The notes under the pieces are model-generated. The model made no database searches, had not been told where the DNA came from, and was given only the letters and a program-made list of their open reading frames with translations. From contig JAFIFZ010000066.1 in assembly GCA_020831775.1 (NCBI GenBank), positions 1-41,029 of the forward strand: a DNA stretch of 41,029 nt. Reading direction: 5' to 3'. This DNA comes from Phycisphaerales bacterium. Its GTDB lineage: Bacteria; Planctomycetota; Phycisphaerae; Phycisphaerales; UBA1924. The position numbers and the translations under genes were made by a program. Within the stretch, counting starts at the first letter, position 1. Each line of letters begins with the position of its first letter. This document shows positions 1,155 to 39,303 of the stretch, in pieces.

Positions 1155-1934
1155 TCAGCTCTTGGCCTGGGCTTCTCTGCGTCTGGCTTTGGGGAGGGGC
1201 TCGTCAAATTCGTCGCCTCGGAAGAGTGAGCCGAGGTAGACGCGTTTGACCATGTCGTTGTTGATCAGTTCGCGGGGCGAGCCTTCGGCGAACTTCTTGC
1301 CGCTGTCGATGATGTAGGCGCGGTCGCAGACGCGGAGGGTCTGCTGGACATTGTGGTCGGTGATGAGGAAGGCGATGCCTTCGTCTGCGAGCTGGCGGAT
1401 TTCGGTCTGGAGGTCTTCGACGGCGATGGGGTCGACGCCGCTGAAGGGTTCGTCCATGAGGATGAGGCGCGGGCGGGTGACCAAAGCGCGGGCGATTTCG
1501 AGCTTGCGTCGTTCGCCGCCGGAGCAGGTGCGGGCGGCGTGGGTGGCCTTGTGGGTCAGGCCGAAGCGTTCGAGGAGTTCGTCGGCCCTTTTGCGTCGCT
1601 CGGCCCGGCCCATCGGCAGGGTTTCGAGGATGGCCATCAGGTTGTGGCGGCAGTTGAGGCGTCCGAAGACGGAGGGCTCCTGGCTGAGGTAGCCCATGCC
1701 GAGGCGGGCGCGCTTGTACATCGGCAGGCGGGAGATGTCCTTGGTGTCGAAGGTGACACGTCCGGCGTCGGCGTCGATCATGCCGATGGTCATGCGGAAG
1801 CTGGTGGTCTTGCCGGCGCCGTTGCGTCCGAGGAGGCCGACGATCTCGGCCGCTTCGACATGGAAGGAGACGGAATCGACGACGGTGCGTCCGGCGTAGG
1901 CCTTGCGGAGGTTGTCGGCCTCGAGGAGGGGCAT
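1155..1934 (-). CDS. lptB: LPS export ABC transporter ATP-binding protein LptB
   Basis: This 259-residue ATPase would drive lipopolysaccharide extraction from the inner membrane together with LptF and LptG. It shows Walker A GRNGAGKT (36-43), Q-loop Gln85, signature CSGGE (137-141), Walker B LILMDEP (157-163) and switch His194 in TDHN. The C-terminal VYLGSLF (232-238) matches the YLGxxF tail I know from LptB and separates it from amino-acid transporter ATPases. The frame stays open far upstream, but homology begins at MPLLEADNL. That ATG has no Shine-Dalgarno sequence and instead has TACACT six bases upstream, as in a leaderless gene. Two LptF/LptG-type permeases lie at 34017-39289, not adjacent. 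The C-terminal 20 residues are Lys/Arg-rich. Confidence 0.93.
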   Translation of the reverse strand: MPLLEADNLRKAYAGRTVVDSVSFHVEAAEIVGLLGRNGAGKTTSFRMTIGMIDADAGRVTFDTKDISRLPMYKRARLGMGYLSQEPSVFGRLNCRHNLMAILETLPMGRAERRKRADELLERFGLTHKATHAARTCSGGERRKLEIARALVTRPRLILMDEPFSGVDPIAVEDLQTEIRQLADEGIAFLITDHNVQQTLRVCDRAYIIDSGKKFAEGSPRELINNDMVKRVYLGSLFRGDEFDEPLPKARRREAQAKS

Positions 1935-1940
1935 GGGCGG

Positions 1941-1946
1941 AGTGTA
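1941..1946 (-). promoter_or_regulatory. candidate leaderless -10 box for lptB
   Basis: On the minus strand TACACT lies 6 nt before the lptB ATG, inside CCTACACTCCGCCC-ATG. The surE start has almost the same context. There is no Shine-Dalgarno sequence and no clear -35 hexamer. Confidence 0.45.
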
Positions 1947-1966
1947 GGTCCGGGGCGGGATCGTGC

Positions 1967-1972
1967 TATGCT
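1967..1972 (+). promoter_or_regulatory. candidate leaderless -10 box for the PEGA lipoprotein
   Basis: TATGCT lies 7 nt before the ATG at 1980. It faces the lptB -10 box across a 45-bp gap between the two divergent starts, which would leave almost no room for 5' untranslated leaders on either transcript. Confidence 0.4.
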
Positions 1973-1979
1973 GCGGGCG

Positions 1980-2417
1980 ATGGCGACCATCCGGACAATC
2001 TGCGGCGGAGCGGCCCTCGGCGTCGTGCTCGCGGGGCTTGCCGGGTGCTCGAGCGACCGTCGCATCGTGGTGACGAGCGACCCGCCCGGGGCGCGGGTGT
2101 GGGTGAACGACATCGAGATCGGGACGACGCCGGCGGAGACGAGCTTCAAGTTCTACGGGCGGTACGACATCCGTCTGGAGAAGCCGGGGTACGAGCCGTT
2201 GAGCGAGGGGCGGACGGCGCGGGCGCCGGTGCACGAGTGGCCGGTGATTGATCTGGTGGCGCTGGCGGCGCCCTACCGGTTCAAGGACCGGGTGGCGTGG
2301 CACTTCGAACTCGAGCCCTCGCTGGAGGTGACCCAGGGCGAGGAGGAGTTCCGCGAGGGGGTGCTCGAGCGGGCGCGGGAGACGCGGACGGAGCTTGGGC
2401 CGCGGCCGGGGCGCTGA
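1980..2417 (+). CDS. PEGA-domain lipoprotein
   Basis: A 145-residue exported lipoprotein. The signal peptide ends in the lipobox LAGC, so the mature protein would be lipid-anchored at Cys. A PEGA-type beta domain follows directly: the segment VTSDPPGARVWVND, then a GTTPAE turn and LEKPGYEPL, is the classic PEGA pattern of surface-associated proteins. The rest is charged and ends Arg/Gly-rich. I chose ATG 1980 rather than the in-frame ATG at 1968 because 1968 lies inside the presumed -10 hexamer. It is divergent from lptB across 45 bp. The exact role is unknown; the family is thought to act in envelope or surface-layer assembly. Confidence 0.75.
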   Translation: MATIRTICGGAALGVVLAGLAGCSSDRRIVVTSDPPGARVWVNDIEIGTTPAETSFKFYGRYDIRLEKPGYEPLSEGRTARAPVHEWPVIDLVALAAPYRFKDRVAWHFELEPSLEVTQGEEEFREGVLERARETRTELGPRPGR

Positions 2418-2423
2418 GGCAGG

Positions 2424-2440
2424 CCCGAGAAAAACTCGGG
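2424..2440. other. small hairpin after the lipoprotein gene
   Basis: CCCGAG-AAAAA-CTCGGG forms a perfect 6-bp stem with a five-A loop, starting 7 nt after the lipoprotein stop. No U-tract follows, so it is not a textbook terminator. It may still mark the transcript end or stabilise the 3' end. Confidence 0.45.
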
Positions 2441-2568
2441 ATCCGTGTGCTTGAGCAGGGATCTTGAGGTAGACTTTTGCTGAGGTTTTGGTTTTGATCG
2501 GATCAGCCGTGCCGGTGTCGGCGTGGCTGGTTCGCGTGAACCCCCGAACTTGGCGAGAGGAGCAACCC

Positions 2569-5947: not shown

Positions 5948-6702
5948 CGCTCGAAGCGCGCGACATCACGGCGGGGTACCGCGACACGCCCGTCTTGCAC
6001 GGGGCGGGCGTGAAGATCGCGCCGGGCGAGCTGGTGGGCATCGTCGGGCCCAACGGGTCTGGCAAGTCGACGCTGCTGCGCGTGATGGCGAGGCTGCACA
6101 AGCCCGAGGGGGGCGCGGTGCTGCTCGACGGCGAGCCGATCTCGAAGCTGGCGAGGCGGGCGATTGCGCGGAAGCTGGCGGTGATGCCGCAGCACCAGCC
6201 GACGCCCGAGGGGCTGACGGTGCGCGAGCTTGTCGCGTTCGGCCGAGCCCCGCACGGTCGCGACCCCGTCGCCGACAAACAAGCGATCGAGCACGCGCTG
6301 CAGCTGGCGGACATGACGCACCTGAGCCACCGACGCCTGACGGCGCTCTCTGGAGGCGAGCGCCAGCGGGCGCGCCTGGCGATGGCGCTGGCGCAGTCGC
6401 CCTCGCTGCTCTTGCTCGACGAGCCGATCGCGGCGCTGGACATCCGCCACCAGCTCGATGTGCTGGCGATGCTGGCGTCGGTGCGCGAGGGGCGCGGGAT
6501 CGGCGTGGGCGTGGTCATCCACGATCTGATGCTGGCGGACCGGTACTGCCCGCGGATCGTGGTGCTGGAGGAGGGGCGAGTGGCCGCCGACGGCCCGGCG
6601 GATGAGGCGTTGAGCCCGGGGCTGGTGCGGCGGGTCTTTGGGGTGGAGAGCCGCAGGCTGAGGGATCCGGAGACGGGGCGGGGTGTGTTGGTGTGCGGGT
6701 AG
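5944..6702 (+). CDS. FecE/BtuD-type ABC importer ATPase
   Basis: A 252-residue ATPase that powers the importer. It has Walker A GPNGSGKS (35-42), Q-loop Gln83 in MPQHQ, signature LSGGE (135-139), Walker B LLLLDEP (155-161), a D-loop AALD and switch His193 in VVIHDL. QTP-like spacing and the LARRAIARKLAVMPQ stretch are typical of iron-siderophore/cobalamin ATPases. It starts at GTG 5944, overlapping the permease stop; homology begins immediately after. It is the last gene of the three-gene operon. The long upstream extension of this reading frame inside the permease gene is not coding. Confidence 0.9.
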   Translation: MTLEARDITAGYRDTPVLHGAGVKIAPGELVGIVGPNGSGKSTLLRVMARLHKPEGGAVLLDGEPISKLARRAIARKLAVMPQHQPTPEGLTVRELVAFGRAPHGRDPVADKQAIEHALQLADMTHLSHRRLTALSGGERQRARLAMALAQSPSLLLLDEPIAALDIRHQLDVLAMLASVREGRGIGVGVVIHDLMLADRYCPRIVVLEEGRVAADGPADEALSPGLVRRVFGVESRRLRDPETGRGVLVCG

Positions 6703-6734
6703 GCGAGAATCGACAAAATTTTTTCCGAAAGTGC

Positions 6735-6763
6735 TTGCGTCCGGAAACCGAAGCCGGTAGGTT
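6735..6763 (+). promoter_or_regulatory. weak candidate promoter before the Cys-rich gene
   Basis: TTGCGT (6735-6740) and TAGGTT (6758-6763) are separated by 17 bp in the 190-bp gap between the importer operon and the next gene. The match is only moderate. Confidence 0.3.
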
Positions 6764-6894
6764 GAGATCTGGCCTTGGACAGGCCGTTCCGAATATGGAT
6801 TTGTGCCCCGCTAGGTATGCGGGCAGAGGATTGAGCTCGTGTCATGGCCGTCTGGAATGGTTCTTGGCGGTCTCAGGAGCCAGAAAGGAACGCA

Positions 6895-7221
6895 ATGCAG
6901 TACATCAAGCGGAGTGGTCAGAAGATGCTCGATGGGTCCATCGTAGTCGCGGCGATCGTCGTAATGGCGCTCGGAGCTGCGGCGTTGGCCTCGGGAGGCA
7001 TCCACAGTCCCGGTTGGCAGTGGGGGCAGCAGAACTGCAATCCAAATGTTCCGGAGCACGGTGTCAACACTTTTGCTCAATGCCTGAGTTGCTGCAACAA
7101 CATGACCTATGACCCCGATCCGAAAATCAACGAGGATGTGGAAATACCCCAGTGCTATGGGTATTGCTGCGTAGCGTTCGCATCGACCGGCCCTCATCCT
7201 GAGTGTGAAACGGAGGATTAG
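6895..7221 (+). CDS. small Cys-rich exported protein
   Basis: A 108-residue protein I do not recognise. After a short basic start, residues about 12-32 form one hydrophobic segment (IVVAAIVVMALGAAALA), a signal peptide or anchor. The exported part of about 75 residues carries nine cysteines, clustered as CLSCC, CYGYCC and isolated Cys near each end, which suggests disulfide bonds or a metal site. ATG 6895 is chosen over an upstream ATG because AAAGGAA sits 5 nt before it. It heads a same-strand group with two coupled exported proteins and a pseudopilin. Composition is less GC-rich than the importer genes, consistent with an accessory locus. Confidence 0.6.
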   Translation: MQYIKRSGQKMLDGSIVVAAIVVMALGAAALASGGIHSPGWQWGQQNCNPNVPEHGVNTFAQCLSCCNNMTYDPDPKINEDVEIPQCYGYCCVAFASTGPHPECETED

Positions 7222-7319
7222 TAGAACGAAGGCGAGGAGTGACCAAGTGCGAGTTGCTGCGACGAGTCAGCTCGTCGCAGCGGCATTTCTCGATACTTCA
7301 AAAATAATTAGAGACAACT

Positions 7320-7994
7320 ATGGGAAAAAAAGTGCTTATCGCGGGCCTAGGGGTGGCGGCAGTCTTGGTGTGTCTTCTGATTGCGAATGTCGCGGGCTCA
7401 AAAGCGGATCGCCTTCAGGTCCCCTATGTTCCGCCGGAATTACCTGAAGATGCCCACCCTAGGTTTGTTTCGTACATTGCGGAGTTCAGGCCGGTGGTTG
7501 TCGATCCGGCGTCGATAATGCCCGTCGAGGCTCAGCAGCAGATGGCTTACATCAACAACGTCATTGCTGTCAGACCCAGGTGGGAGGAAGATGACATCGA
7601 AGAATTGCTGGACATCATCGCCGCGCACGAATCATTCAGGGAAGGGCGGGTTGATGGCGAGCCGATGGATATCGAAACCCGGTCGAGTTGGGGCGTGCTG
7701 ACAAAGGCGTTTTTTGCATTTAGAACACGGATTCTATTCAGCGGCCCTATGTCCGATGCCGCAGAAGCCCGTCTGATCGAGGCGTTGGTGGGGTACGCGA
7801 CGCATGATGATGTGTATTTCAGATCAAACAGCATATCAATTATTATGGTGTCGCCGAGAATGATGCGCAAGCCGGAAGTGCGTCGCGTTCTCCGTGATGC
7901 ATATCACAATGACCCGTCGCCGAGGATTACAGGCTACATCGATCAGCGTATGAGATCGCTCCGCAGCCGGGGGCGTTGGGAGGGCGAATTGTGA
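7320..7994 (+). CDS. exported helical (HEAT-like) protein A
   Basis: A 224-residue protein I do not recognise. Residues about 5-25 are a hydrophobic anchor or signal (VLIAGLGVAAVLVCLLIANV). The rest is helical. The last third, LIEALVGYATHDDVYFRSNS followed by RRVLRDAYHNDPSPRITGYI, resembles a pair of degenerate HEAT repeats with the typical D-x-D/P-x-R turn. The next gene has the same layout and starts within the last codon (GTGA overlap), so the two are translationally coupled. The ribosome binding site is weak. Composition is lower in GC than most of the window. A structural or adaptor role at the membrane is a guess. Confidence 0.6.
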   Translation: MGKKVLIAGLGVAAVLVCLLIANVAGSKADRLQVPYVPPELPEDAHPRFVSYIAEFRPVVVDPASIMPVEAQQQMAYINNVIAVRPRWEEDDIEELLDIIAAHESFREGRVDGEPMDIETRSSWGVLTKAFFAFRTRILFSGPMSDAAEARLIEALVGYATHDDVYFRSNSISIIMVSPRMMRKPEVRRVLRDAYHNDPSPRITGYIDQRMRSLRSRGRWEGEL

Positions 7995-8704
7995 AGACTT
8001 CGCTAGTGTGCGTCAAGGCCTGTTTGCTTGCGTCGCTTCTTGGCGTGGCGGTCGTGTTGTCTGTCAAGCTTGTCAGCGGCGGAGTTTCGGAGGCTCCGGA
8101 CCTTGAGCATCGAGCATACACAGAAGCGGGCAGCGGTGGTTCACCGAAGACCGACGAGAAGTCGTGCTCCTCTTGCCCACAGGATGCTGCTGGTAGGTAT
8201 CGGCCGAATGAGCTCTTGCCCGCATCCGGGCAAGCACTTGAGCAGCGTCTTTTCGCGCTTGTCGGTACCGAATCTTGGTCTGACGAGGATGCTGTTTTCG
8301 CGTCTGATTTGCTTCTGAATGGTCCTCCCCCGGGTTGCGTCGAGAGGCCAGTTGATGCGGTGATGCTTCGGGTTCGAGCGGCGCTCGCGTGCGGGTTTCG
8401 GCTGTGGACGATCCGACATGGAACCGCAGATGATTCGGAATATGCCGAGTTCGTCGGTCAGATGCAGATCCTTGAAACGGCGCTCGCAGTCGGGGTCGCC
8501 GATGGCGACCCTCGCATCCGTTTCACTTCGCTGCGTGCCGCTTTCTATGCCGGAGCTCACTTGGATGATCGCACCTGCGGCGAACTTCTTGAGGTGATCT
8601 TCGCCGCGACAGAGGATCCAGATATCCGGATCGCTCGGGACACACTGAAGCATCTAAACATCGCGAGCTCCACATCTGCGCGAGACTGGTGGAGGCTTCC
8701 GTGA
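7991..8704 (+). CDS. exported helical (HEAT-like) protein B
   Basis: A 237-residue protein coupled to the previous gene by a GTGA overlap. GGGAGGG lies 6 nt before the GTG at 7991, which decides the start over an upstream TTG. It has an N-terminal hydrophobic anchor (about residues 4-27), a linker with a Cys pair (SCSSCP), then helices. The C-terminal part, LAVGVADGDPRIRFTSLRAA and IFAATEDPDIRIARDTLKHL, forms two HEAT-like units. The order of elements parallels protein A (anchor, acidic DED/EDD motif, long helix, two DP-x-R repeats), so the pair looks like diverged duplicates. Function is unknown. Confidence 0.6.
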   Translation: MKTSLVCVKACLLASLLGVAVVLSVKLVSGGVSEAPDLEHRAYTEAGSGGSPKTDEKSCSSCPQDAAGRYRPNELLPASGQALEQRLFALVGTESWSDEDAVFASDLLLNGPPPGCVERPVDAVMLRVRAALACGFRLWTIRHGTADDSEYAEFVGQMQILETALAVGVADGDPRIRFTSLRAAFYAGAHLDDRTCGELLEVIFAATEDPDIRIARDTLKHLNIASSTSARDWWRLP

Positions 8705-8755
8705 TGCGATGAGGAACCACTTCAGAATTATTCAACTGCGTAATCGGCTGCGCTT

Positions 8756-9367
8756 ATGGCTTATGCTCTGCAAAAAAATCAAGAACGCGGTTTCACCATC
8801 ATCGAGCTGGTTGTAGTGATCTCGATCGTTGTGGTGCTGCTGGCGCTCCTCATTCCGGGGTTGGGTGCGGTGCGCAAGTCGGCCCGGGCTGCGGCATGCC
8901 AGAGCAATCTACGGACCACTTACACCGGGTTTCGGACATATCAGGACGCGAACAACAACGCCTTGCCGATCGTGTTCGGCGGGTACAGGCCGGGTGACGG
9001 GCAGATGGAGCCGGTCCGCACGCTGGCCGAAATGCTCGGTGTGCCGGCGCCCGAGCGGTCGGGGGACGAGTTCACCAGACGACAGCCATGGGCCTGCCCG
9101 GAAGACACGACGGTGTTCAGAGAGAAGGGGTGGAGCTATTATGAAGATGCGTATCTAATATATGGCTATTATCGTACAATGGGCGGCAATCCGATGGGCA
9201 GGACGATCGCCCATTACGAGAACGATCCTGAATCGATCTTTGTCGTCGAAGCATCGCAGCCCGCCCACGGGCTCCGCGACACCCGTGACCCTTTGGGCCG
9301 TCCTCAGTATCGCCGTCACGAACTGCTCTACGACGGGACGGTGCGGCTCCAGGAAACTCGTCGGTAA
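8756..9367 (+). CDS. prepilin-type N-terminal cleavage/methylation protein (pseudopilin-like)
   Basis: A 203-residue type II secretion/type IV pilin-like protein. A short leader ends in ERG, followed by FTIIELVVVISIVVVLLALLIP. This is the class III signal with cleavage after Gly12, N-methylated Phe and Glu+5. The C-terminal globular part has ACPEDTTVF and a DYLIYGYY-like aromatic patch and ends with RRHELLYDGTVRLQ, a feature of the planctomycete pseudopilin families with a DG-V closing motif. No other secretion-system genes are nearby. It follows the exported-protein pair by 50 bp on the same strand and may share their transcript. Many Planctomycetota carry large numbers of such orphan pseudopilins, so a specific role is not implied. 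Confidence 0.8.
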   Translation: MAYALQKNQERGFTIIELVVVISIVVVLLALLIPGLGAVRKSARAAACQSNLRTTYTGFRTYQDANNNALPIVFGGYRPGDGQMEPVRTLAEMLGVPAPERSGDEFTRRQPWACPEDTTVFREKGWSYYEDAYLIYGYYRTMGGNPMGRTIAHYENDPESIFVVEASQPAHGLRDTRDPLGRPQYRRHELLYDGTVRLQETRR

Positions 9368-9390: not shown

Positions 9391-9396
9391 TACGCT
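9391..9396 (+). promoter_or_regulatory. candidate leaderless -10 box for surE
   Basis: TACGCT lies 6 nt before the GTG of surE, in the context CCTACGCTCCGCCC-GTG. This is nearly identical to the lptB start context. No Shine-Dalgarno sequence is present. Confidence 0.45.
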
Positions 9397-9402
9397 CCGC
9401 CC

Positions 9403-10317
9403 GTGCGCATCCTCCTGACCAACGACGACGGCATCCGGGCTCCCGGGATTGTTTCGCTCTTTCACGCTCTGGCCGATCCTTCCGGCGAGCTCGGCGGGCC
9501 GATCTTCGGCGATGAGACCGAGATCATGGTAGTCGCGCCCGAGACGGTGCAGTCGGCCACGAGCCACGGCGTGACCTTCCACGAGCCGCTGATGGCGCGC
9601 CGGGTCCGCATGAGCGAGCACATGGAGGGGATCGCCGTCGACGGGCGCCCGGCGGACTGTGTGAAGCTGGCGCTGAGCGCCCTGTGGCCCGAGCAATTCG
9701 GCGAGGGGTCCAGGCCGGACATCGTGCTGTCTGGGATCAACTCCGGGGCGAACTGCGGCGTGAATGTGATCTATTCGGGGACGGTGGCCGCGGCGATCGA
9801 GGCGGCGTTTCTCGGCGTGCCCTCGATCGCCCTGAGCCTGCACATGGGGCGCGGGGTGGCGTTGTTTGATCTAGCGGCGCGGCATGCGCGTCGCGCGGTC
9901 GAGCGGCTGCTGGAGGGCGGGCCGCTGGAGGCGCACGAGTGTCTGAATGTGAACATCCCGCTGACCGAGCGTGCGCCGGGCGAGGAGGAGGACGCGCGGG
10001 GGCTGGCGGTCTCGGCGGGGCTGGCGTCGCAGGGGCCGCAGCCGTACGAGAAGATGACGACGCGTGATCCCGAGGCGATGCCGCCGATCCGTGTGTGCCG
10101 CATGAACACGCACGGGCTGGTTGATGAGTACGAACGCCGTACGAGCCCGACGGGGGGGACTTATTTTTGGGCTGCGGGGGGCGGGCTCAATTTCCACGCG
10201 ACGGAGCCGCAGTCGGATGTTGATTTGTTGTTTGCGGGGTGTATTACGGTGACGCCGCTGACTTATGACATGACGCGGGGTGCTGGGTTGCGGCGTTGGG
10301 CGGATCGGTTGGTGTAA
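9403..10317 (+). CDS. surE: 5'/3'-nucleotidase SurE
   Basis: A 304-residue survival protein E homologue, a metal-dependent phosphatase of nucleoside monophosphates (and often short polyphosphate). The N-terminal MRILLTNDDG carries the Asp8-Asp9 metal ligands. VVAPETVQSATSH gives the SAxSH phosphate-binding loop, here with Ser and His retained. LSGINSGANCGVNVIYSGTV contains the conserved NxGxN and YSGTV signatures. DGRPADCVKLAL is the usual helix. The C-terminal tail places the dimer hairpin around TSPTGGTYFW. The start is GTG 9403 and fits the family N-terminus exactly. It stands alone between a pseudopilin and a metalloprotease gene, and I see no operon context. Confidence 0.93.
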   Translation: MRILLTNDDGIRAPGIVSLFHALADPSGELGGPIFGDETEIMVVAPETVQSATSHGVTFHEPLMARRVRMSEHMEGIAVDGRPADCVKLALSALWPEQFGEGSRPDIVLSGINSGANCGVNVIYSGTVAAAIEAAFLGVPSIALSLHMGRGVALFDLAARHARRAVERLLEGGPLEAHECLNVNIPLTERAPGEEEDARGLAVSAGLASQGPQPYEKMTTRDPEAMPPIRVCRMNTHGLVDEYERRTSPTGGTYFWAAGGGLNFHATEPQSDVDLLFAGCITVTPLTYDMTRGAGLRRWADRLV

Positions 10318-10637
10318 GGGTCGGAGTGATTCACCATTCCCTTGCGCAGAGCGATCTGATCTGCATGCGTTCGGTCCTCGATCCAAAAAATCGACTAAAT
10401 CCGTGCGGTATGTGGGAGACGGTGGTTCGCTGTCCGTAGAGCGTAGTGGCGTTGGCTGTGTGGTCTCGCCTTGCGTTCTAGAGTGTTCGTTTGGACAGAC
10501 ATCGGCACGGTGCAGCGCGGCTTGCGGGAGTGGAGCGATGCTGGTAGAAGGCGGAGTATCCAGTCCTCTATAGATCGTTCGTGTGGCCTATGCACCCGGC
10601 GGTGGCCGCAAGCTGCGGTTCTTCAATGGGGTGGAAA
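10318..10637. other. intergenic region upstream of the metalloprotease gene
   Basis: About 320 bp with no convincing gene. TATAGA at 10569-10574 is a reasonable -10 hexamer and would give a leader of roughly 57 nt before ATG 10638. I find no good -35 match 16-18 bp upstream. No strong terminator for surE is visible. Confidence 0.4.
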
Positions 10638-13600
10638 ATGTTCAGGATCTCAGGCATGGCAGTGTTGCTCGCGGCGGTGCTGGCGTTGCTCTGGATGCCG
10701 TCGATCGCGGTGGGCCAGGCAGATACAAAACAAGCTATCCGAGAGAAGCTGCAACTTGACAGCTTCGATCTCGTTGCTTTGGATCTTCCATCGGATGTTG
10801 GCGAGGGCTTCATACTTGAGATCGAGCTGGAAGGGCAGGCTTTCGAGATCCAAATGTTTCCGCATTCTGTGCGAGCGCCTGACTTCGAAGTGTGGCTCCA
10901 CGATGGCACTGGCGAAGCGAAGGTCATTGATGTGCCCGAGCCGCGGACAGTGCGGGGCACTGGCTTGGGTGAACAAGAGGTGGCAGTCGTAGGTTCGCTA
11001 AGAGAGGTCGGACTTTCAGCCCTGGCGATCCAGCAAGATCTTATTGGGCGGAAGCAGCAAGTGTGGGTGATTCAACCGCTGTTGGAAATCATGGAGGAGG
11101 TAACAATACCAGGGCAGCATGTAGTCTATCGGTTGAGTTCTACTTCAAGGGATCTAGGCGTTTGTGGCGTGTGTGGAGATGGGCAGAACCACTCAGCACA
11201 CACAGCGCAGCATCATAGCATTCCGGCCAGCACCGGATTGAACAACGGCGATTTCCAAGATTCGCCGCAACCTGAGACCAGCCTGTACATCGCAGACATC
11301 GCTTATGACACCGACGCTGACTATTATTTGCACCACCAATCTGATCCAAATGCCGTGGTGGACGCAGTTGAGTCGATCCAGAACAATGTATCATTCCTAT
11401 ACGAGCACTCGCTTGATATCACATACTTCATTCGCGTAATTCATGTGCGGAGTGACCCGGCTACCGATCCCTATACGCACCAGCAGCCCCAGTTATTGCT
11501 TGATCAATTCGCATATCTGTGGTCGTCCGATCCTCAGTATGCCGGCGTTGATCGTAGTGTTGCGCACTTGATTACAGGAAAGTGGGCGGTTCCGAGTAGT
11601 GTTGGCGGGATAGCCATGTTGAGTGGTGTCTGTGTGCCGAATCGCGGGTACGGATTGACCTATGTCGCACAAGACTCATTTGATACGATGTTGATAGTCG
11701 CGCACGAATTGGGACACAATTGGAGTGCCGTTCATTGCGATGAGCCTCCCCATTCCGATCCTGATTGCGGGTTGATGACCCGCGTACTGCAGCGCCATTT
11801 GCACTTTGGTACTCGTTCTACGAACGATATTGCTATGTTTAGAGACTCCCGAGAGTGCCTGTCGGGCGCTGGCTGCATATACACTGTTGTTCCGCTGGAG
11901 CGAACCGTGCCGTCGGATGCGGGGAGTCACCTCATCGGAGTCGGCGCGAACCGGCTTATATGTCAGTGGGATGTTGCAAGCAATGATGACTGGATCACAA
12001 TTATGACTGGAACGGGAGGTTCTGGTGGTGGAAGTGTTATCTACGAAGTCAGCGAGCATACTGGCGCTAGCCCCCGGGTCGGCACCATTACGGTAGCCGG
12101 TCAGGTCCACGAAGTTACACAGGAAGGTGGCGGCTGTGGCTATGCGATCTCCCCGACTGAGATGCAGGTGGCGAGTGGAGCAGTGTCCGGATTGGTCAAT
12201 GTGCTTAGCCCATCAGGATGTGAGTGGACCGCTGTTAGTAGTGCGCCATGGATCACGATTGAGCCCGGTTCGCAACAAGGAAGTGGGAGTGAACCTGTAC
12301 TATTCAGCGTTTCTGCCAATGCAAGCCAGAGTCCACGAGTGGGTACGGTCACGATACAAGATAACATATTCGTTGTAACTCAAGATGGAGTAGTTTGCAG
12401 TTATGAGTTAGATTCGAGCATTCGCGATGTTCCGGCGGATGAGATGTCGTACATCCTTGGTGTGACCGCTTCGCTGCCGGACTGTGAGTGGACAGCGCAG
12501 AGCAATGACCCGTGGATAGTGGTTACACATAACCATCAGGGGACTGGCAATCAGACGGTTGTTTTCAAAGTGCTGGCCAATCAGAGTAGCTCAATGCGAA
12601 CAGGCACGCTGACGGTTGCGGGTTACACGCACACCGTGAGACAGTCGGGCGCCGATTGCAATTACGAACTCGGTTCACCTGGCCGCACGGTGTCTGCCGC
12701 CCAGGCGACCTATTCGCTGGATGTCACCGCAACGCACTCGTTCTGTCCGTGGTCGGCTCAGAGCAACGCCCCGTGGATATCGATCGTCGGCGGCGCTATG
12801 GGGCAGGGCAATGATGTGGTGCAGTATCGCGTGGATGCGAATCAAGACACTATGTCGCGAGAGGGTACCATCACGGTCGCCGGAAACACGTTTGTCGTGT
12901 CGCAGCAGGGCGTGGCCTGCACGATTGCGATCGAGCCGTCGACCCGAACGGTATCGGCCGATGAGCATACCGGTCTGGAACTCAATGTGTCCGCATCGCC
13001 TTCGACCTGCTCCTGGGCGGCCGAGAGCAATGTCCCGTGGATCGTGATCACGGACAATCCGACCGGGACCGGTGACGATACTGTCGTCTACACCGTCGTG
13101 GCGAACGACACGATCGATCAGCGCGAAGGCGAGATCGTTGTAGGCAGTGAGACGCACACGGTTGTCCAAGCCCCGGTGGAGTGTTTCTATGATCTCGGGC
13201 CGCCCTCCCACACGGTGCCCCCTTCGGGCGGCGAGTACTGGTTTGGAGTGGACGCGCAACCCTCCACCTGCGAAATTGCGGTCGTTTCGACTGTTGACTG
13301 GGTGGAGATTATCGATGTCGATCCGTTCGGCAATGTGGATTACCGCGTGTTTCCGAACAACACTCCGGATCCCCGTCAGACGGAGTTCGTCATCGGGAAC
13401 GCGACACACAGTGTGTGGCAGAGTTCCGCGGCGATCTGCGACTCCTTTGTTGATCCCCCTTCGAGGGTTGTGGACGGCTACGGCGGTCAGTTCGATTTCA
13501 TGATGTTCATCAGCTTGTGGGATCCGATGTGTGTTCCGGAACCCTCAACCAACGAGTCATGGATCGAGATCGTCAGTGTCACAATCACGGGGACGGGGCT

Positions 13601-14746: not shown

Positions 14747-14774
14747 TTGCATCGCGGACGGGATTCGTTATCCT
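14747..14774 (+). promoter_or_regulatory. promoter with leaderless geometry before the LTD protein
   Basis: TTGCAT (14747-14752) and TATCCT (14769-14774) are separated by 16 bp. The -10 ends 6 nt before ATG 14781, so transcription should begin at about the start codon. This is the only leaderless candidate here with a recognisable -35 hexamer. Confidence 0.5.
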
Positions 14775-21698: not shown

Positions 21699-21704
21699 AT
21701 GGTA
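21699..21704 (-). promoter_or_regulatory. candidate leaderless -10 box for the M42-like gene
   Basis: On the minus strand TACCAT lies 6 nt before ATG 21692. It falls in the 23-nt gap after the upstream gene, so it may be an internal promoter or a chance match within an operon. Confidence 0.3.
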
Positions 21705-26325: not shown

Positions 26326-26331
26326 AGAGTA
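26326..26331 (-). promoter_or_regulatory. candidate leaderless -10 box for the large amidohydrolase gene
   Basis: On the minus strand TACTCT lies 8 nt before ATG 26317, with no Shine-Dalgarno sequence between. The -35 is not evident. Confidence 0.35.
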
Positions 26332-28209: not shown

Positions 28210-28215
28210 TAGAAT
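28210..28215 (+). promoter_or_regulatory. candidate leaderless -10 box for the FmdB-like gene
   Basis: TAGAAT lies 5 nt before ATG 28221. No Shine-Dalgarno sequence is present. Confidence 0.45.
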
Positions 28216-28523: not shown

Positions 28524-28597
28524 GGGGCAATGGGGTGGTCCGAAGGAATTGTGAACAAGGCCAGTCGTGCACGCTTTTCTCTTGCTGAGGTCACTCG

Positions 28598-29506: not shown

Positions 29507-29569
29507 CCCGCTCCGAAGGAGCGCAGGATCTTGGCCACGGGTGAGTCGAGCGAGACGCGCACGCGTCGA
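29507..29569 (+). repeat. direct repeat upstream of the potassium channel gene
   Basis: A 63-nt unit starting CCCGCTCC-GAA-GGAGCG and continuing through GCCACGGGTGAGTCGA to GCGTCGA. A 63-nt copy with 55 matching positions lies at 30348-30410, so the two flank the channel gene in the same orientation. Its end is only 15 nt from the channel start codon and touches the presumed -10 box. Between 29390 and 29506 I see nothing else. Confidence 0.8.
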
Positions 29570-29571: not shown

Positions 29572-29577
29572 TACACT
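29572..29577 (+). promoter_or_regulatory. candidate leaderless -10 box for the potassium channel gene
   Basis: TACACT lies 7 nt before ATG 29585, just after the repeat unit. There is no Shine-Dalgarno sequence. Confidence 0.45.
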
Positions 29578-29584: not shown

Positions 29585-30337
29585 ATGCCCACCCTCCGCC
29601 AGATCGTCGAGGACCACGACACGCCGCACGGGCGCGCGTTCGATATCGCGATCCAGGTTCTCATCGTCCTGTCCCTGATCTCGTTCACCGTCGAGACTGT
29701 CGAGGGGCTGCCCGAGGCGGTCCGTCGCTGGCTCCGGTGGATCGAGGTCGTCACGGTGCTGATCTTCACCGTGGAGTACATCCTCCGGGTGTATGTGGCG
29801 CGGCCTCGGAGGTCGTACATCCTGAGTTTCTACGGCGTTATCGACCTCGTCGCCATTCTTCCGTTTTACCTCGCCAGCGGCGTTGACCTGCGATCGGTTC
29901 GGGCGCTGCGGCTGCTGCGGCTCTTCCGGCTCTTCAAGCTCGTTCGGTACAGCGCGGCGATGCGACGCTTCCATGTCGCGCTGAGCATCGTCAAGGAAGA
30001 GGTCGTGATGTTCCTCGCCGCGACCGCGATCCTGCTGTACCTCGCGTCGGTCGGCATCTACTTCTTTGAGAGCAAGGCCCAGCCCGAGCTGTTCGGCTCC
30101 ATCTTCGACAGCATGTGGTGGGCGGTGGTCACGCTCACGACAGTCGGCTACGGCGATGTCTACCCGATCACGATCGGGGGGCGGCTGTTTACCTTTGTCG
30201 TGCTGCTTGTCGGGCTCGGCGTGATCTCCGTGCCCGCGGGGCTTGTCGCGTCGGCGCTATCGAAAGCGCGCGAGCTCGAAAAGCAGGAGCAGGAAGCCGT
30301 GGATGCGGCGCCGTCGGAGCAAGACAGCGGGGTGTAG
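29585..30337 (+). CDS. voltage-gated-type potassium channel
   Basis: A 250-residue six-transmembrane ion channel subunit. The S4-like segment carries regularly spaced arginines (RSVRALRLLRLFRLFKLVR, about residues 102-120), the voltage-sensor pattern. The pore loop has TLTTVGYGDV, the potassium selectivity filter. S5 and S6 are hydrophobic on either side, and a short Glu/Lys helix with no ligand-binding domain ends the protein. It would form a tetrameric K+ channel in the inner membrane. ATG 29585 begins at the family N-terminus (VEDHDTPHGRAFDIAIQ). The gene is bracketed by 63-nt direct repeats. Bacterial Kv-like channels of this length are well known. Confidence 0.9.
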   Translation: MPTLRQIVEDHDTPHGRAFDIAIQVLIVLSLISFTVETVEGLPEAVRRWLRWIEVVTVLIFTVEYILRVYVARPRRSYILSFYGVIDLVAILPFYLASGVDLRSVRALRLLRLFRLFKLVRYSAAMRRFHVALSIVKEEVVMFLAATAILLYLASVGIYFFESKAQPELFGSIFDSMWWAVVTLTTVGYGDVYPITIGGRLFTFVVLLVGLGVISVPAGLVASALSKARELEKQEQEAVDAAPSEQDSGV

Positions 30338-34016: not shown

Positions 34017-35153
34017 TCAGCTTTTGATCGAGGCGAAGGCCCAGAAGGTCATCGGCACCAGCGCCAAGAGGGGCAGGAAGACCCCGATCGCCGCCGGAAC
34101 CCCCGGCACCGGCGCAGCAGACCCGATGATCCCGCCCATGATCACCCCCAGGGCGATGGGGGCGGCCTTGAGCGACTGCACGGCCATGTTCCTCGGTTCT
34201 CGCGTCAGGAAGAAGGGCAGGGCGATCACCAGCCCGAGCAGGTTGGCCGCCAGAACCGCGAACCTGCCCCAGCGGATACGTTCGAGCCGGTCGACGCGGA
34301 CGCCGGCGGAGCGTTCGTCGCCGGTGCGTCGGACGATCCGCATCATCTCGGTCACCTGGCCGAAGCTCAGGCTCTGCATGTACTCGGCGTGCTGGGCGAT
34401 GGTCAGGGCCGTCGGGTCCAGGTCCGTCTCGATGCGCTCGACGGGCCGGGGCGTGGGCGCCACGGCGGCGTCGGCCGAGGCGGGCTCGACCCCGACTCCG
34501 TCCTCCAGCGTCCAGCCCCCGTGCTCCCAGACCGCCGAGCGGGCCTCGATCCGCCGGGTCATCAGGCCTGCGGCATCGCGCTCCCAGATGAACACCCCGC
34601 GCATCGTCCCCGCCTTGGCGTCGAAGCTCTCGGCGGCGATCAGGCGGCGCGAGCCGTCGGGCACGAGCATCACGCTGGTGACGGCCAGGTCCCGCGTGCC
34701 CGCGTCGCCGTAGCCCCGCGTCAGCAGCGGGGCGAAGCGGGGCAAAAGCACCTCGGCGTTGACGATCTGCAAGCCCCCGAGGCAGGCCGCCACGACCAGG
34801 ATCGGGCGGGCGACGCGGACGAGGCTCTGCCCGCTGGCGAGGATCGCCACCAGCTCGCGGTGGCGGACCATCTGGGCGCAGGTGAAGCCCATCGCCCCGA
34901 CCATCACGATGCCGAGCATCACATTGAAGAGCTGCAACAGCCTGGGCCACCACAGATCGATCACCACGAGCGGCAGCGCCAGCCAGCGCCGGATCGCCGA
35001 GGCGTCCTCGCCCACGAGGCTCTCTGCCGCGCGTGCGAAGCGCCCGATGTTGAGGGTCGCGTCGACCACGACGATGAAGCTGCAGAGGATCGCCAGCAGG
35101 ATCAGGAAGTTCAGGGCGAACTGGCGCGCGATGTAACGGTCGAGGATGGTCAT
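34017..35153 (-). CDS. LptF/LptG-family permease (YjgP/YjgQ)
   Basis: A 378-residue inner-membrane permease of the lipopolysaccharide exporter. The N-terminal MTILDRYIARQF followed by a hydrophobic helix is the family signature. Six membrane segments are expected: three before and three after a periplasmic beta-jellyroll domain (about residues 125-265). RHRELVAILASGQS in the cytoplasmic coupling loop is the LptB contact. The start ATG 35153 overlaps the PAP2 gene stop by four bases (ATGA), so translation is coupled. It is the last gene of a four-gene envelope operon whose first gene is a second family member. Which of the pair is LptF and which LptG is not decided by sequence reading alone. 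Confidence 0.85.
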   Translation of the reverse strand: MTILDRYIARQFALNFLILLAILCSFIVVVDATLNIGRFARAAESLVGEDASAIRRWLALPLVVIDLWWPRLLQLFNVMLGIVMVGAMGFTCAQMVRHRELVAILASGQSLVRVARPILVVAACLGGLQIVNAEVLLPRFAPLLTRGYGDAGTRDLAVTSVMLVPDGSRRLIAAESFDAKAGTMRGVFIWERDAAGLMTRRIEARSAVWEHGGWTLEDGVGVEPASADAAVAPTPRPVERIETDLDPTALTIAQHAEYMQSLSFGQVTEMMRIVRRTGDERSAGVRVDRLERIRWGRFAVLAANLLGLVIALPFFLTREPRNMAVQSLKAAPIALGVIMGGIIGSAAPVPGVPAAIGVFLPLLALVPMTFWAFASIKS

Positions 35154-35863
35154 GCCCCGTTCCCCTCGCTGTGGATCAAGGCCGAGCGCCGGGTCTCCCA
35201 CTCCGGCTCGGGGCGGAAGAAAAGCCCGACACCGATCCCGATCATCGCGCCGAGGGCAACGTCGCTCAGCCAGTGAGCACCGGTCATCATGCGGCTGATG
35301 CCGCAGCCGGCAGCCCAGACCCAGAAGACCGGCGCGGCTCTTGGGAGCATCGCCGCGAGGACCGTCGCGCCGGCGAAGGCAACCGCGGCATGACTGCTGG
35401 GCAGACCCAGGTTCTTCCCGTGGATCACCCCTTCAAGCCAGGGCTGGAACGAGTACCAGTCGCCGACCTCGCCCGGACGCTCGCGGACGAAGATCCGCTT
35501 GAAGATCTCCGCCAGCAGCCCCGCGGCCGCCGTCGCGACGACGATGCGGAAGGCGAACTCGACGCCGTGACGGCGCTCGCCCGGCCCCGGGCTCGCGGTC
35601 CTTGGGGGGCAGAGGGCGACGACGATCGCGATGCCCATCCACGCCCACAGCCCGCCCCCCTGGCGGAGGACGTGGTACCACTCGGTGCGTTCGACCTTCC
35701 GCTTGGCCGCTTCCTGGTCCTCCCCCGCCAGGACGAGTGCGTGCGCCGGCATGTCCAGCAGGTGCGCCAGCAGGAGCACCAGCGCGAAGATCGCGCCGAG
35801 GTGGAAGGCGCGCACCCTGCGCCGGTGTCGTGTGTAGGCGTCGATCGGGACCATGGGTCGCAA
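35150..35863 (-). CDS. PAP2-family membrane lipid phosphatase
   Basis: A 237-residue membrane phosphatase of the PAP2/LpxE type. All three catalytic motifs are present: KRIFVRERP (K-x6-R-P, 122-130), PSSH (155-158, the PSGH motif) and SRMMTGAHWLSD (S-R-x5-H-x3-D, 190-201). About five to six hydrophobic helices surround them. The active site should face the periplasm and remove phosphate from a lipid, for example undecaprenyl-PP, phosphatidylglycerophosphate or lipid A. Placement between a GT-C glycosyltransferase and an LptF/G permease favours an envelope glycolipid. I take TTG 35863 as start since GGGAG in the end of the upstream gene is well spaced; ATG 35854 is the alternative. Confidence 0.85.
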   Translation of the reverse strand: MRPMVPIDAYTRHRRRVRAFHLGAIFALVLLLAHLLDMPAHALVLAGEDQEAAKRKVERTEWYHVLRQGGGLWAWMGIAIVVALCPPRTASPGPGERRHGVEFAFRIVVATAAAGLLAEIFKRIFVRERPGEVGDWYSFQPWLEGVIHGKNLGLPSSHAAVAFAGATVLAAMLPRAAPVFWVWAAGCGISRMMTGAHWLSDVALGAMIGIGVGLFFRPEPEWETRRSALIHSEGNGA

Positions 35864-35866
35864 AGA

Positions 35867-37570
35867 CTACTCCCGTTCCCCGCCCGACGCGTCCCGCGGC
35901 AGTTCCCGCCCGAACCCCCTGAACCCGTAGCCGATGAAGGTCGGCCGGTCGCGACGGTCGTTGTCGGGCAGGCCCTCGACGCGGTCGAAGGCGGGCTTCC
36001 ACTGCTCGTAGCCGCCGCCGACGATCACCGCGTCCCGCCCGAGTAACGCCGGCGTCTGCTCGTCAACCGACCACTCGGGCCAAAAGTCGAGCTGGCTCTT
36101 GCGTCCGGTGAACAGCCCCTCCTCGGGCACGCTGGGGAGCTGGGCGCTGGCGGCGTACACCACCGGACGCCCGGGCAGCAGCCACGAGAGCAGGCTCGAA
36201 GTCCCGTAGTGCCCCGTCATCACCACAGGGGGCCCCGCGGGGTTGTCTTGCGTTCTGAGCACTTCGAGGCGTTCCTGCACGCCCTCGGCGAGCACCGGGC
36301 CTCGTTCCAGCCTGCCCAGAGGCAACCTGTCGCCCGCGAACGGCAGCAGCCGGTACGCCGGCAGGTACTGCAGCGAGAGCCCCACGAAGATCCCGACCCC
36401 GATCGTCCAGTGCCAGAGCGCCTGCGAGTGCGTCTCGGGCGAGCGGCGGAGGAACCCAGCCCTGGGGCGGGGCTCGGGCAGCGCCTTCCACATCCGCACT
36501 CGCCAGCGGTACCGGCGCATCGCGACGGGCAGCCACATCCCCGCCGAGGCGCTGAGCGTGACATACGCCGCCAGCGTCCAGTTGCCCTGCGTGGGCGTGA
36601 AGAAGCTGACGACGAAGTAAAAGAGGATCTGCGAGAGCCCGATCGACCAGCAGTAGAGCTGCGCCCGCCAGAGCACGGGCTTCGAGCGTCGTTTCGTCAG
36701 GGCGTAGCCGAAGCCGATCGCCGCCAGCGCCAGCGCCGGCCCTGCGACGAGGATCTGCAGGCCGAGGTATTCCAGCGTCCAGAGTGGGCTGTAGGGGTCG
36801 GCGCGTTCGAGGCGTTCTGCCGAGATGTCCCCGCCCTCAAGACGCAGGTGCCCCATGAGGTGGAGCACCGTCGCCCAGCCGTTCTGGCTGTTCCAGATCA
36901 GGACGGGGACCAGCCCGAGCGCGCCGCACGCGACACCGATCAGCACCGGCCCGACCCGCAGCGAGGCACGCGCCCGCCGGTCCAGCAGCAGGAAGACCAG
37001 CAGCCCGGGGATGAACAGGAGCATGGTGTACTTGAAAAGGAACCCCGCGGCGATCGCCAGGCCCAAGGCGGCCCACGCCGGCGCCGAGCCGGTGCGCAGC
37101 GCCCGCCACGCACACAGCGACGCCAGCGCCCAGCAGGCGATGTAGGGCCCGTCGATGGTCATAAAGAGCGTGGTCGCCTGCGTTGCGGGCAGGAGCATGA
37201 AGATGCCGGCGCCGTACACCGCCGCACGCCGATCGCCCGACGCCCACTTGGCCAGCAGCCCGACACAGATCGCGCCGATCGCGGCCGCGACGGGGGCGAG
37301 CCAGCGCACGCCAAAGACCGTGTCGCCAAAGGCGGCGGTGCCGAGCCAGATCGCCCACGCGATGCCCGGGCCCTTGGAGTAGTACGACCAGCCTGGGTGC
37401 TGGCTCCAGAGCCAGTAGTGCGCCTCGTCCTGCACGAGGTCGTACGGGACGATGAGCCAGAGCGAGAGCAGGCGCAGGGCCGTGATGATGGCGACGAGCA
37501 GCAGCATCGGCCCGAGGCCCGCGAGGGCCCGGCCATTGCCGAGGAGGGGTTGTTCCCGCTTGGCCTCCAC
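35867..37570 (-). CDS. GT-C (PMT_2/ArnT-like) membrane glycosyltransferase
   Basis: A 567-residue polytopic glycosyltransferase of the ArnT/PMT_2 superfamily that uses polyprenyl-phosphate sugars. The catalytic first periplasmic loop is clear: VQDEAHYWLWSQHPGWSYYS carries the conserved acidic DE pair and the YY-K/H-GPG motif. About ten to eleven hydrophobic helices follow. The last 170 residues form a soluble periplasmic domain with GRPVVYAASAQLPS and FIGYGFRGFGREL. The GTG at 37570 starts 3 nt after the upstream LptG-like stop, so the two are tightly coupled; it ends 3 nt before the PAP2 start. An acceptor on lipid A or another exported glycolipid is inferred from the neighbours. Confidence 0.85.
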   Translation of the reverse strand: MEAKREQPLLGNGRALAGLGPMLLLVAIITALRLLSLWLIVPYDLVQDEAHYWLWSQHPGWSYYSKGPGIAWAIWLGTAAFGDTVFGVRWLAPVAAAIGAICVGLLAKWASGDRRAAVYGAGIFMLLPATQATTLFMTIDGPYIACWALASLCAWRALRTGSAPAWAALGLAIAAGFLFKYTMLLFIPGLLVFLLLDRRARASLRVGPVLIGVACGALGLVPVLIWNSQNGWATVLHLMGHLRLEGGDISAERLERADPYSPLWTLEYLGLQILVAGPALALAAIGFGYALTKRRSKPVLWRAQLYCWSIGLSQILFYFVVSFFTPTQGNWTLAAYVTLSASAGMWLPVAMRRYRWRVRMWKALPEPRPRAGFLRRSPETHSQALWHWTIGVGIFVGLSLQYLPAYRLLPFAGDRLPLGRLERGPVLAEGVQERLEVLRTQDNPAGPPVVMTGHYGTSSLLSWLLPGRPVVYAASAQLPSVPEEGLFTGRKSQLDFWPEWSVDEQTPALLGRDAVIVGGGYEQWKPAFDRVEGLPDNDRRDRPTFIGYGFRGFGRELPRDASGGERE

Positions 37571-37573
37571 GCG

Positions 37574-39289
37574 TCAGTGCCGGACCAGCCCGCGGTAGCC
37601 GACGATCGTGAGCGCGCCCATGACGACGATGCCGCCCCAGAGCACGATGAGGCCCTCGATCCCCTGGCGGTAGAGCATGTTCTGCCCGCCCGAGACGCTC
37701 GCGAGGATCGCCAGCGCCGGGATGAAGCTCAGGAGGTAGACAGAGAGCGGGTCGCTGTGGCGGAGGCGCATCGCCGCGATCGTGCCGGCCATCATCACCA
37801 CGATCACGCTGACCGAAAGCCCCGCCCGCTCGTGGATCTTGCTGAAGACCTCGTCTTCGAGCTGGATCACGCGCCCTTCCAGGTCGTTGCGAGGGCCGAC
37901 CAGCGTGCCGGCGCCCCACGACTCGGCCTCGATCCGCCGGTCGGCCTCGGCCAGCAGCTCGGGGATCGGCCGCTCCATGAACTCGGCGGTCGGGTCGAAC
38001 CAGAGGGTGAGCGCGGGGAAGTCGAGCTGGTCGCGCTTGCCCGCGGCGCCGAGCTGGTCGCCCGTCACCGCCGAAGCGCCCATGAGCGAGAGCGTGAGTT
38101 CCAGGCTGCGGAACTCGCGCTCGCCCTCGACGGCGGCGTCGAAAAACGCGCGGTCCGACTCCCACCTGATCGTCCGGCCCTCGGGGTCGAAGCGTTCGAT
38201 CCGCACCGGCCCGTCCGCGGCCTGCTCGATCAGGTGCCCGCGCGGGCGGGGGGTGAGCCCTGTGCCGCTGACGAGCACCGTCCGCCCGAGCTGGTCGCGC
38301 AGTCGCACGCCCCCCTCGGAGCGGAGCTGATCGTCGATCGCCTCGAGCGCTTCGAGGCGGGCGAGGTGGAAGGCGAGCTCGCGCTTGCGCGACTGGATGT
38401 AGTCCATCCGCTCGGGACTTTCGGGCAGGTTGCGCAGGTCCCGGTAGGTCATGTACTTCGCGTTGGTCTCGAAGGTCCCGCCGATCGCGTAGGGCCCGGT
38501 GCGGAAGCGCTGCGCCCGCGCGATCGGCACATCGCGCCCGCGACGCCCGACCGTCTCGGCGAGGTCGATGAACGCGAGCGTCCCGCTCTGGGCCGCCGGA
38601 TCGTCATCGTCGGCGATCGACTCGGCGCGGAAGAGCCAGACGATCGCCTCGGTCGCGGTGAGCTCCGAATCGATCTTCATCGTCGGCGCGTCGGGGTCGT
38701 CCTCGGGCGGCGCGACGCGTTCTGTCCGAACCAGCGCCACCTCGCGCAGGCGGATCCGCTCGTACGCCCCCACGCTCCGGTCAGGCCCGAGCGAGGTCGC
38801 GCTGGCGGCGTGCAGCGCCACATTCCCGAACCGGATCGGCTCGCCGGTGTCGACCGACCGCGTGATGATCCGCTGCACATCGCGGGCGACGAGCGTCTCC
38901 ATCGAGTTGAGGAAGCGGGGGATCACCTGCTCGTTCATCACCCCCATCACGCCGGCGAGCATGATCGCTGTCGCCAGCGCGGGCGCCACGATCGCGTGGT
39001 GGGAGACCCCGCCCGCGTGGGCGGCCAGCACCGCGTTCTCCTGCGTGTGCCGGTGGTAGACCATCGTCGCGGCGAACCCCGCCGCGAACGGCAGCGCGTA
39101 CGCCAGCATCGGCGGCATCGCCAGCAGCATGAACAGCGGGGTGTCGAGGGGCTGCAGCAGCCCGTCAGACAGCGGCTTCACGGAGATCGCAAAGCAGATC
39201 ACCACCAGCACCACCGCGGTCGACAGCAGGAGCAGACGCCACAGTTCGAGCGTCAGGTGCGTCCACAAAGTCCAGGGCAGTCGGGGCAT
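37574..39289 (-). CDS. LptF/LptG-family permease with enlarged periplasmic domain
   Basis: A 571-residue LptF/LptG-type permease. It starts MPRLPWTLWTHLTLELWR before the first hydrophobic helix and has MPPMLAYALPFAAGFAATMVYH as helices two and three, then a coupling loop HRHTQENAVLAAHAGG. The periplasmic part spans about residues 110-470, against roughly 150 residues in the family members I know, with acidic and Arg-rich inserts. Three C-terminal helices follow (SVSVIVVMMAGTIAAM, VYLLSFIPALAILASV, GGIVVMGALTIVGY). It heads the envelope operon. ATG 39289 has TATCAT 8 nt upstream and no Shine-Dalgarno sequence. The partner ATPase LptB is encoded at 1155-1934. Confidence 0.82.
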   Translation of the reverse strand: MPRLPWTLWTHLTLELWRLLLLSTAVVLVVICFAISVKPLSDGLLQPLDTPLFMLLAMPPMLAYALPFAAGFAATMVYHRHTQENAVLAAHAGGVSHHAIVAPALATAIMLAGVMGVMNEQVIPRFLNSMETLVARDVQRIITRSVDTGEPIRFGNVALHAASATSLGPDRSVGAYERIRLREVALVRTERVAPPEDDPDAPTMKIDSELTATEAIVWLFRAESIADDDDPAAQSGTLAFIDLAETVGRRGRDVPIARAQRFRTGPYAIGGTFETNAKYMTYRDLRNLPESPERMDYIQSRKRELAFHLARLEALEAIDDQLRSEGGVRLRDQLGRTVLVSGTGLTPRPRGHLIEQAADGPVRIERFDPEGRTIRWESDRAFFDAAVEGEREFRSLELTLSLMGASAVTGDQLGAAGKRDQLDFPALTLWFDPTAEFMERPIPELLAEADRRIEAESWGAGTLVGPRNDLEGRVIQLEDEVFSKIHERAGLSVSVIVVMMAGTIAAMRLRHSDPLSVYLLSFIPALAILASVSGGQNMLYRQGIEGLIVLWGGIVVMGALTIVGYRGLVRH

Positions 39290-39297
39290 CGGGAAGG

Positions 39298-39303
39298 ATG
39301 ATA
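39298..39303 (-). promoter_or_regulatory. candidate leaderless -10 box for the LptG-like operon
   Basis: On the minus strand TATCAT lies 8 nt before ATG 39289, in the 42-bp gap after the lipoprotein gene. No Shine-Dalgarno sequence is present. Confidence 0.35.

Follow-up and report, generated by a model that had tools for sequence, protein, structure and literature searches.

TANNNT hexamers before start codons

The contig JAFIFZ010000066.1 (GenBank assembly GCA_020831775.1) of a Phycisphaerales bacterium, 41,029 nt long and hereafter called the window, is one (C31) of the 84 contigs of a 3.55-Mb genome. In an original prediction, made from the letters of the window, nine of its genes were listed as carrying a -10-like hexamer, TANNNT, directly before the start codon and no Shine-Dalgarno sequence, and were proposed to be leaderless. 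Upon rereading, the letters and the spacers of all nine hexamers proved to be as claimed, and we identified a tenth box of the same pattern, before a gene for a PAP2 phosphatase (Table 1). The names given to the genes agree with Pfam, except that the FmdB-like zinc ribbon stays under the Pfam cut-off (26.6 vs 34.4 bits). The gene caller chose the start codon of Table 1 in six of the ten cases and called a different start in the other four.

Table 1. Putative -10 boxes and candidate leaderless genes in the window.
Feature	Position	Strand	Remarks
Putative -10 box TACACT	1941..1946	-	6 nt upstream of ATG 1934, lptB-like ABC ATPase
lptB-like ABC transporter ATPase, leaderless candidate	1158..1934	-	PF00005, E 3.9e-33
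Putative -10 box TATGCT	1967..1972	+	7 nt upstream of ATG 1980, PEGA lipoprotein
PEGA-domain lipoprotein, leaderless candidate	1980..2417	+	PF08308, E 3e-12
Putative -10 box TACGCT	9391..9396	+	6 nt upstream of GTG 9403, surE
surE, leaderless candidate	9403..10317	+	PF01975, E 1.9e-52
Putative -10 box TATCCT	14769..14774	+	6 nt upstream of ATG 14781, LTD-domain protein (14781-15479, PF00932)
Putative -10 box TACCAT	21699..21704	-	6 nt upstream of ATG 21692, M42-like peptidase (20451-21692)
Putative -10 box TACTCT	26326..26331	-	8 nt upstream of ATG 26317, large amidohydrolase (23138-26317)
Putative -10 box TAGAAT	28210..28215	+	5 nt upstream of ATG 28221, FmdB-like zinc ribbon (28221-28523)
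Putative -10 box TACACT	29572..29577	+	7 nt upstream of ATG 29585, ion channel (29585-30337)
Putative -10 box TAGTCT	35864..35869	-	9 nt upstream of ATG 35854, PAP2 phosphatase (35150-35854)
Putative -10 box TATCAT	39298..39303	-	8 nt upstream of ATG 39289, LptF/LptG-like permease (37574-39289)

The position of the hexamer was assessed in a sample of 747 kb, consisting of the window and 40 further stretches (21% of the genome), in which genes were called with a self-trained coding model that is blind to upstream sequence, so that the motif cannot be favoured by the start calls. At positions -15 to -11 of 597 starts, TANNNT was counted 7, 8, 17, 39 and 7 times, respectively, over a background of 2.0 per position; an earlier set of 599 starts gave 8, 8, 18, 38 and 9, with about 2 per position elsewhere. 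Genes with a TANNNT at -11 to -15, which we have termed TA-led, number 78 of 597 (13.1%), while 5.65 are obtained when the upstream DNA is shuffled with its dinucleotides preserved (maximum 13 in 300). Within the window, six of the 30 called genes are TA-led, as compared to 0.39 in shuffles; when the window, from which the nine cases had been picked, is left out, 72 of 567 genes remain versus 5.3. No peak precedes the internal start codons that the caller passed over (2 of 9,470 at -12). The check named beforehand was to compare starts with shuffled upstream regions, and the sharp peak then predicted is indeed what this part of the genome contains.

Some TANNNT hexamers are expected before starts by chance or from base composition: 10 of the 597 genes (1.7%) have one at the control offsets -36 to -32, which leaves a net excess of about 12% of genes, and the chance rate of about 2% per start assumed in the original prediction was of the right size (0.95% in the shuffles at -11 to -15, against the 1.7% in real DNA). 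The whole genome, for its part, contains TANNNT-N6-ATG 225 times and the phase-matched control, TANNNT-N12-ATG, 76 times, and none of the 292 Planctomycetota genomes counted in the same way (see below) has an opposite excess beyond z -4. On the strength of the shuffles and the phase-matched control, chance and composition are rejected, with practically no room left for them, and the TANNNT observation is confirmed.

A Shine-Dalgarno word (GGAG, GAGG or AGGA at -16 to -4) occurs before none of the ten genes of Table 1. The accompanying claim that many other genes have AGGAGG-type sites is weak for the window, where a Shine-Dalgarno word precedes only five of the 30 genes called, with AGGAG or GGAGG before two of the 30, but it holds in the genome sample (211 of 597 genes; 35%); the contrast with the TA-led genes is therefore clear only in the larger sample. 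There, using the set of 599 starts, the word precedes four of 82 TA-led genes and 224 of the 517 others (Fisher p 2e-13). TTG starts are likewise absent from the TA-led genes (0/82 versus 41/517). The anti-Shine-Dalgarno sequence CCTCCTT is kept at the 3' end of the 16S rRNA (GGATCACCTCCTTTCT in locus L018), by which leaderless and Shine-Dalgarno modes can coexist.

Promoter-like context and spacing before the RNase P RNA

The consensus of the box is TAC[A/C/G][A/C]T, and it is followed by a C-rich stretch, often with a C directly after the box. We have related the presence of the box to operon position in counts pooled over four Phycisphaerales samples. Behind divergent gaps of at most 80 nt, 34 of 54 genes are TA-led and four of 54 have a Shine-Dalgarno word, whereas amongst same-strand genes that overlap, the proportions are reversed (4/104 TA-led, 55/104 Shine-Dalgarno); behind divergent gaps of more than 200 nt, 19 of 196 genes are TA-led. 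The TA-led share thus peaks where a promoter must fit into little room and is low in overlapping operons, which indicates that the box acts in a promoter-like manner.

A -35 element was sought 15 to 19 nt from the box but none emerged, the best match to TTGACA having a mean of 2.51 out of 6, as compared to 2.34 and 2.46 at control distances (n = 79). Nor was there any sign of an extended TGn -10 element, the TG of which occurs in one of 79 TA-led genes of this genome and in 0/47 and 2/23 in two other genomes. Head-to-head gene pairs of which both members are TA-led occur five times in the sample of the window's genome (e.g., L026:12454-12507 and L016:12721-12778), four times in that of genome G042 (e.g., L183:2508-2550) and once in that of Phycisphaera mikurensis; the tight ones have 41 to 79 bp between the starts, with each promoter located at about the -35 position of the other.

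The alternative that the box is a translation signal on an ordinary leader, i.e., an A/U-rich or S1-type ribosome site or some other unusual ribosome-binding site, is suggested by its location near the start codon, where it replaces Shine-Dalgarno words, and by the survey of Nakagawa 2017 (PMC5397173), which names leaderless mRNA and/or S1 for species poor in Shine-Dalgarno sequences, Planctomycetes included. Its rarity in overlapping same-strand genes, where a promoter is unneeded, speaks against this, as does its form: the hexamer is a fixed TA...T, and what follows it is rich in C, with no U-rich run. The untranslated RNA component of RNase P, the 5' end of which is fixed by structure, offers a calibration, as a -10 box should precede that end by the same distance as it precedes start codons.

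We detected the RNase P RNA in 43 of 46 Phycisphaerales genomes. In a first set of 28, TANNNT occurs at -17 to -8 of the modelled 5' end in 24 genomes (control offsets -47 to -38: 1/28), and the same range holds a box in 14 of the 15 remaining ones, giving 38/43 overall. (Loci L264 and L274 are counted in the second set; L292, from outside Phycisphaerales and with its flank cut, was left out.) The commonest offsets of the box are -12 and -13, matching those found before start codons. In another two Phycisphaerales it stands at -13 (G057) and at -14 (P. mikurensis). Six genomes of other families were readable, of which four have a box within the range (G277, -13; G084, -15; G118, -16; G215, -17), one just outside it (G147, -18) and one (G198) none. 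That an RNA which is not translated is preceded by the box, at an equal distance, argues against a translation signal, an explanation we now regard as highly unlikely. The equal spacing also places the expected start of transcription at the start codon, and TANNNT is most likely a -10 element from which transcription would start there.

Conservation in orthologues and the case for leaderless mRNAs

Orthologues of surE were searched for over 61 genomes, and those of the lptB, M42 peptidase and FmdB-like genes over 41 genomes each, the best 30 matches being retained as loci. For surE, 13 named loci were added, making 43 in all, two of which lack a match to the 5' end. Of the 41 surE loci with a readable 5' end, the window's own included, 38 have TANNNT at -11 to -15, or 35 of 38 distinct loci when repeats (L043/L072, L047/L082 and L053/L074) are counted once. 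The SurE proteins of the relatives are 50-65% identical to ours; upstream of the gene, the box stays in place within DNA that has otherwise diverged. The 13 named loci are from metagenome-assembled genomes, labelled Phycisphaerales (six), Phycisphaeraceae (four), Phycisphaerae (one), Phycisphaera sp. (one) and Planctomycetota (one); all of them are thus planctomycete, 12 being labelled Phycisphaerae or a group inside it, in keeping with the earlier impression of a planctomycete-like genome.

The lptB orthologues are similarly constant, with a box at -11 to -16 in 29 of the best 30 loci, own included. For the M42 peptidase, 25 of the best 30 loci have it, counting the own locus and two congeneric loci that are nearly identical to it. 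The FmdB-like gene, discussed below, has the box in a patchy manner, while that of lptB and surE is near-constant, which implies that single genes can switch mode but that lptB and surE rarely do.

In the window, the lptB and PEGA lipoprotein genes stand head to head, with 45 bp separating the start codons and a box before each of them. This arrangement is not conserved: only the near relative G001 shares it with the window's genome, and in the other 19 of the 21 loci with a PEGA match both genes are on the same strand. The PEGA gene may therefore have gained a box of its own upon its move in this genus.

The leaderless-gene interpretation put forward in the original prediction is supported, as far as sequence can show, by the positional peak, operon position, the scarcity of Shine-Dalgarno words, the footprints in orthologues and the spacing before the RNase P RNA. 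We are highly confident, on the basis of these comparisons, that the box is a -10 element placed at about 12% of genes such that their mRNAs would start at or near the start codon. As we envisage it, TANNNT, mostly in the form of the consensus given above, would be the -10 promoter element of this organism, presumably recognised by the primary sigma factor; transcription of the TA-led genes would begin at the first base (A or G) of the start codon or at most about 3 nt from it, and the resulting mRNAs, with neither leader nor Shine-Dalgarno site, would have their 5'-terminal AUG or GUG recognised directly. At least one third of the genes have Shine-Dalgarno words, as would be expected on ordinary leaders.

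A variant of this scheme keeps the -10 element but supposes leaders of about 1-5 nt, or some miscalled starts with a true leader that is longer. It draws on the range of the spacers (5 to 9 nt), on the broad peak (-17 to -12) in genome G042 of family f2, and on the fact that starts are computed, the caller having chosen otherwise at four of the ten window genes. It fits poorly with the sharp peak in the own genome, where 39 counts fall at -12 (a 6-nt spacer), and with the conservation of the SurE and LptB N-termini directly after the box, and we consider it just as improbable as a translation signal. By the measure applied in Cortes 2013 (PMC3898074), leaders of up to 5 nt count as leaderless in any case.

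Several results weigh against leaderless mRNAs starting at the start codon. Spacers of 8-9 nt permit a leader of 2-3 nt. Amongst co-directional genes with gaps of 1-25 nt, 13 of 79 are TA-led, even though such genes have no obvious need of a promoter. The FmdB-like gene has the box in only 14 of the best 30 loci, own included, and nine of the 16 loci without it have a Shine-Dalgarno word instead. About half of the called genes (293/599) have neither signal; these are probably a mix of misplaced starts, genes with other promoters and operon-internal genes. In the RNase P calibration, the 5' end is that of the Rfam covariance model and is assumed to be a primary 5' end in this order. Lastly, in Phycisphaerales genome G044, a sample of 116 called genes has only a slight excess of TANNNT at -11 to -15 over control offsets (10 vs 8); its whole-genome count is, by contrast, 514 vs 266.

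Occurrence in Planctomycetota, known systems and other features of the window

We have counted TANNNT-N6-ATG against the phase-matched TANNNT-N12-ATG in 292 Planctomycetota genomes, taking z >4 together with a ratio of at least 1.5 as a pass; low-G+C genomes have a high background in which weak signals would be missed. In all, 106 genomes pass, and they belong to 26 of the 77 families drawn, five of these 26 in Phycisphaerales. In that order, 28 of 30 genomes pass; the two others are G041 (423 vs 299; z >4, ratio 1.41) and G309 (1633 vs 1519). The cultured strain P. mikurensis NBRC 102666 (G313; identified through its second contig, whose first 20 kb match plasmid NC_017081.1 letter for letter) passes with 321 vs 35. 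Nine genomes of the same class but outside the order (families f7-f9) have z values of -0.4 to 2.3.

In families f30 (25 genomes), f46 (22), f63 (7) and f75 (6), the ratios are 0.99-1.04. Pooled by family, f30 and f46 still show a small excess (z 3.8 and 3.1), amounting to about 32 and 44 per genome versus 132 in the window's family. One f30 genome, G317, does pass (208 vs 70) in a family otherwise almost without signal, which might reflect its placement or a regain of leaderless genes. In another, G277 (63% G+C in the 200 kb read), there is no excess before starts (283 vs 326) although a box precedes its RNase P RNA, suggesting from this one genome that clades may differ in where they place the box and not in the box as such.

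Counts in called genes, in which TANNNT at -11 to -15 is again set against control offsets, were made in further samples, the small ones being suggestive only. They are 41 vs 0 of 207 genes in P. mikurensis, 20 vs 2 of 120 in G042 and 25 vs 8 of 152 in the named Phycisphaerales loci L072-L082. Elsewhere, we obtained 8 vs 2 of 104 (G147), 5 vs 1 of 46 (G229), 9 vs 3 of 110 (G215), 4 vs 2 of 145 (G277), 14 vs 8 of 102 (G192), 4 vs 0 of 70 (G299) and 3 vs 3 of 27 (G110). The peak of G042 (loci L178-L184) has its commonest offset at -15, that of the window's genome at -12; its breadth perhaps reflects very short leaders.

We think it likely that promoters with a -10 box but without a -35 element, making leaderless mRNAs, would be an old and stable mode for some 10-20% of the genes across Phycisphaerales and about twenty further families of planctomycetes, one that is kept at genes such as lptB and surE, while other families would have the same box but not at their start codons.

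Among bacteria, Actinobacteria and Deinococcus-Thermus are the groups in which leaderless expression has the best documentation. In Deinococcus-Thermus, like here, TANNNT lies a few bp before the open reading frame, mostly without a -35 element; mutation has shown it to be the -10 region driving leaderless genes in Deinococcus (Zhong 2025; PMC12340547), and about one third of the genes of D. radiodurans are transcribed leaderless (same source). Our case differs in that it concerns another phylum and a predicted share of about 12% of the genes. In Mycobacterium tuberculosis, too, the -10 element is TANNNT and no -35 motif was found, and a TGN before the box is rare in both organisms (7% there, 1/79 here); there, transcription starts were mapped by sequencing, and leaderless transcripts account for 22% of the expressed genes, or for 26% when only genes having a primary start site are considered (Cortes 2013; PMC3898074). 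The TA-led genes of Zheng 2011 (PMC3160421) resemble ours in having their signal about 12 bp before the start, and TAnnnT in high-GC genomes; that survey reports leaderless genes in 207 of 953 bacterial genomes, and its list of the groups concerned does not include Planctomycetes, a word absent from the text consulted.

As for planctomycetes in other surveys, one is included in that of Nakagawa 2017 (PMC5397173), and Phycisphaerae appear in a table of anti-Shine-Dalgarno types in PMC10783764, the extract of which draws no tie to leaderless genes. The StartLink paper (PMC9581028) states that 21.6% of bacterial species were predicted to be of leaderless type, without naming planctomycetes in the section consulted. 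In the literature searched, we found no earlier report of leaderless genes in Planctomycetes or Phycisphaerales, although the GeneMarkS-2 survey of 5,007 genomes may already class some of them so; nor did the search retrieve any mapping of transcription starts for planctomycetes or P. mikurensis. The kind of system is already known. The present results add the breadth and conservation of its use among Phycisphaerales and other planctomycetes, the calibration on RNase P RNA and, with P. mikurensis, a culture in which it can be tested.

If leaderless expression is shown to be a conserved and substantial mode in them, Planctomycetota would join the groups in which it is established, which bears on whether leaderless genes are ancient in bacteria and on the persistence of the leaderless state in a single gene over time. 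It also matters to the annotation of starts, as TA-led genes may be given wrong start codons by gene finders that look for Shine-Dalgarno sites.

Two other features of the window were noted. A palindromic motif around GCTCCTTCNGAGC has five of its 16 copies in the 747-kb sample within the window, at positions 997, 1095, 28052 and 30625 on the forward strand and at 29522 on the reverse. Furthermore, three stretches (6700-9300, 10581-14129 and 28589-29389) have a poor coding-model score or a low G+C content at third codon positions and possibly contain acquired or fast-evolving genes; the open reading frame from 8756, inside the first of these, has by eye a prepilin-like N-terminus.

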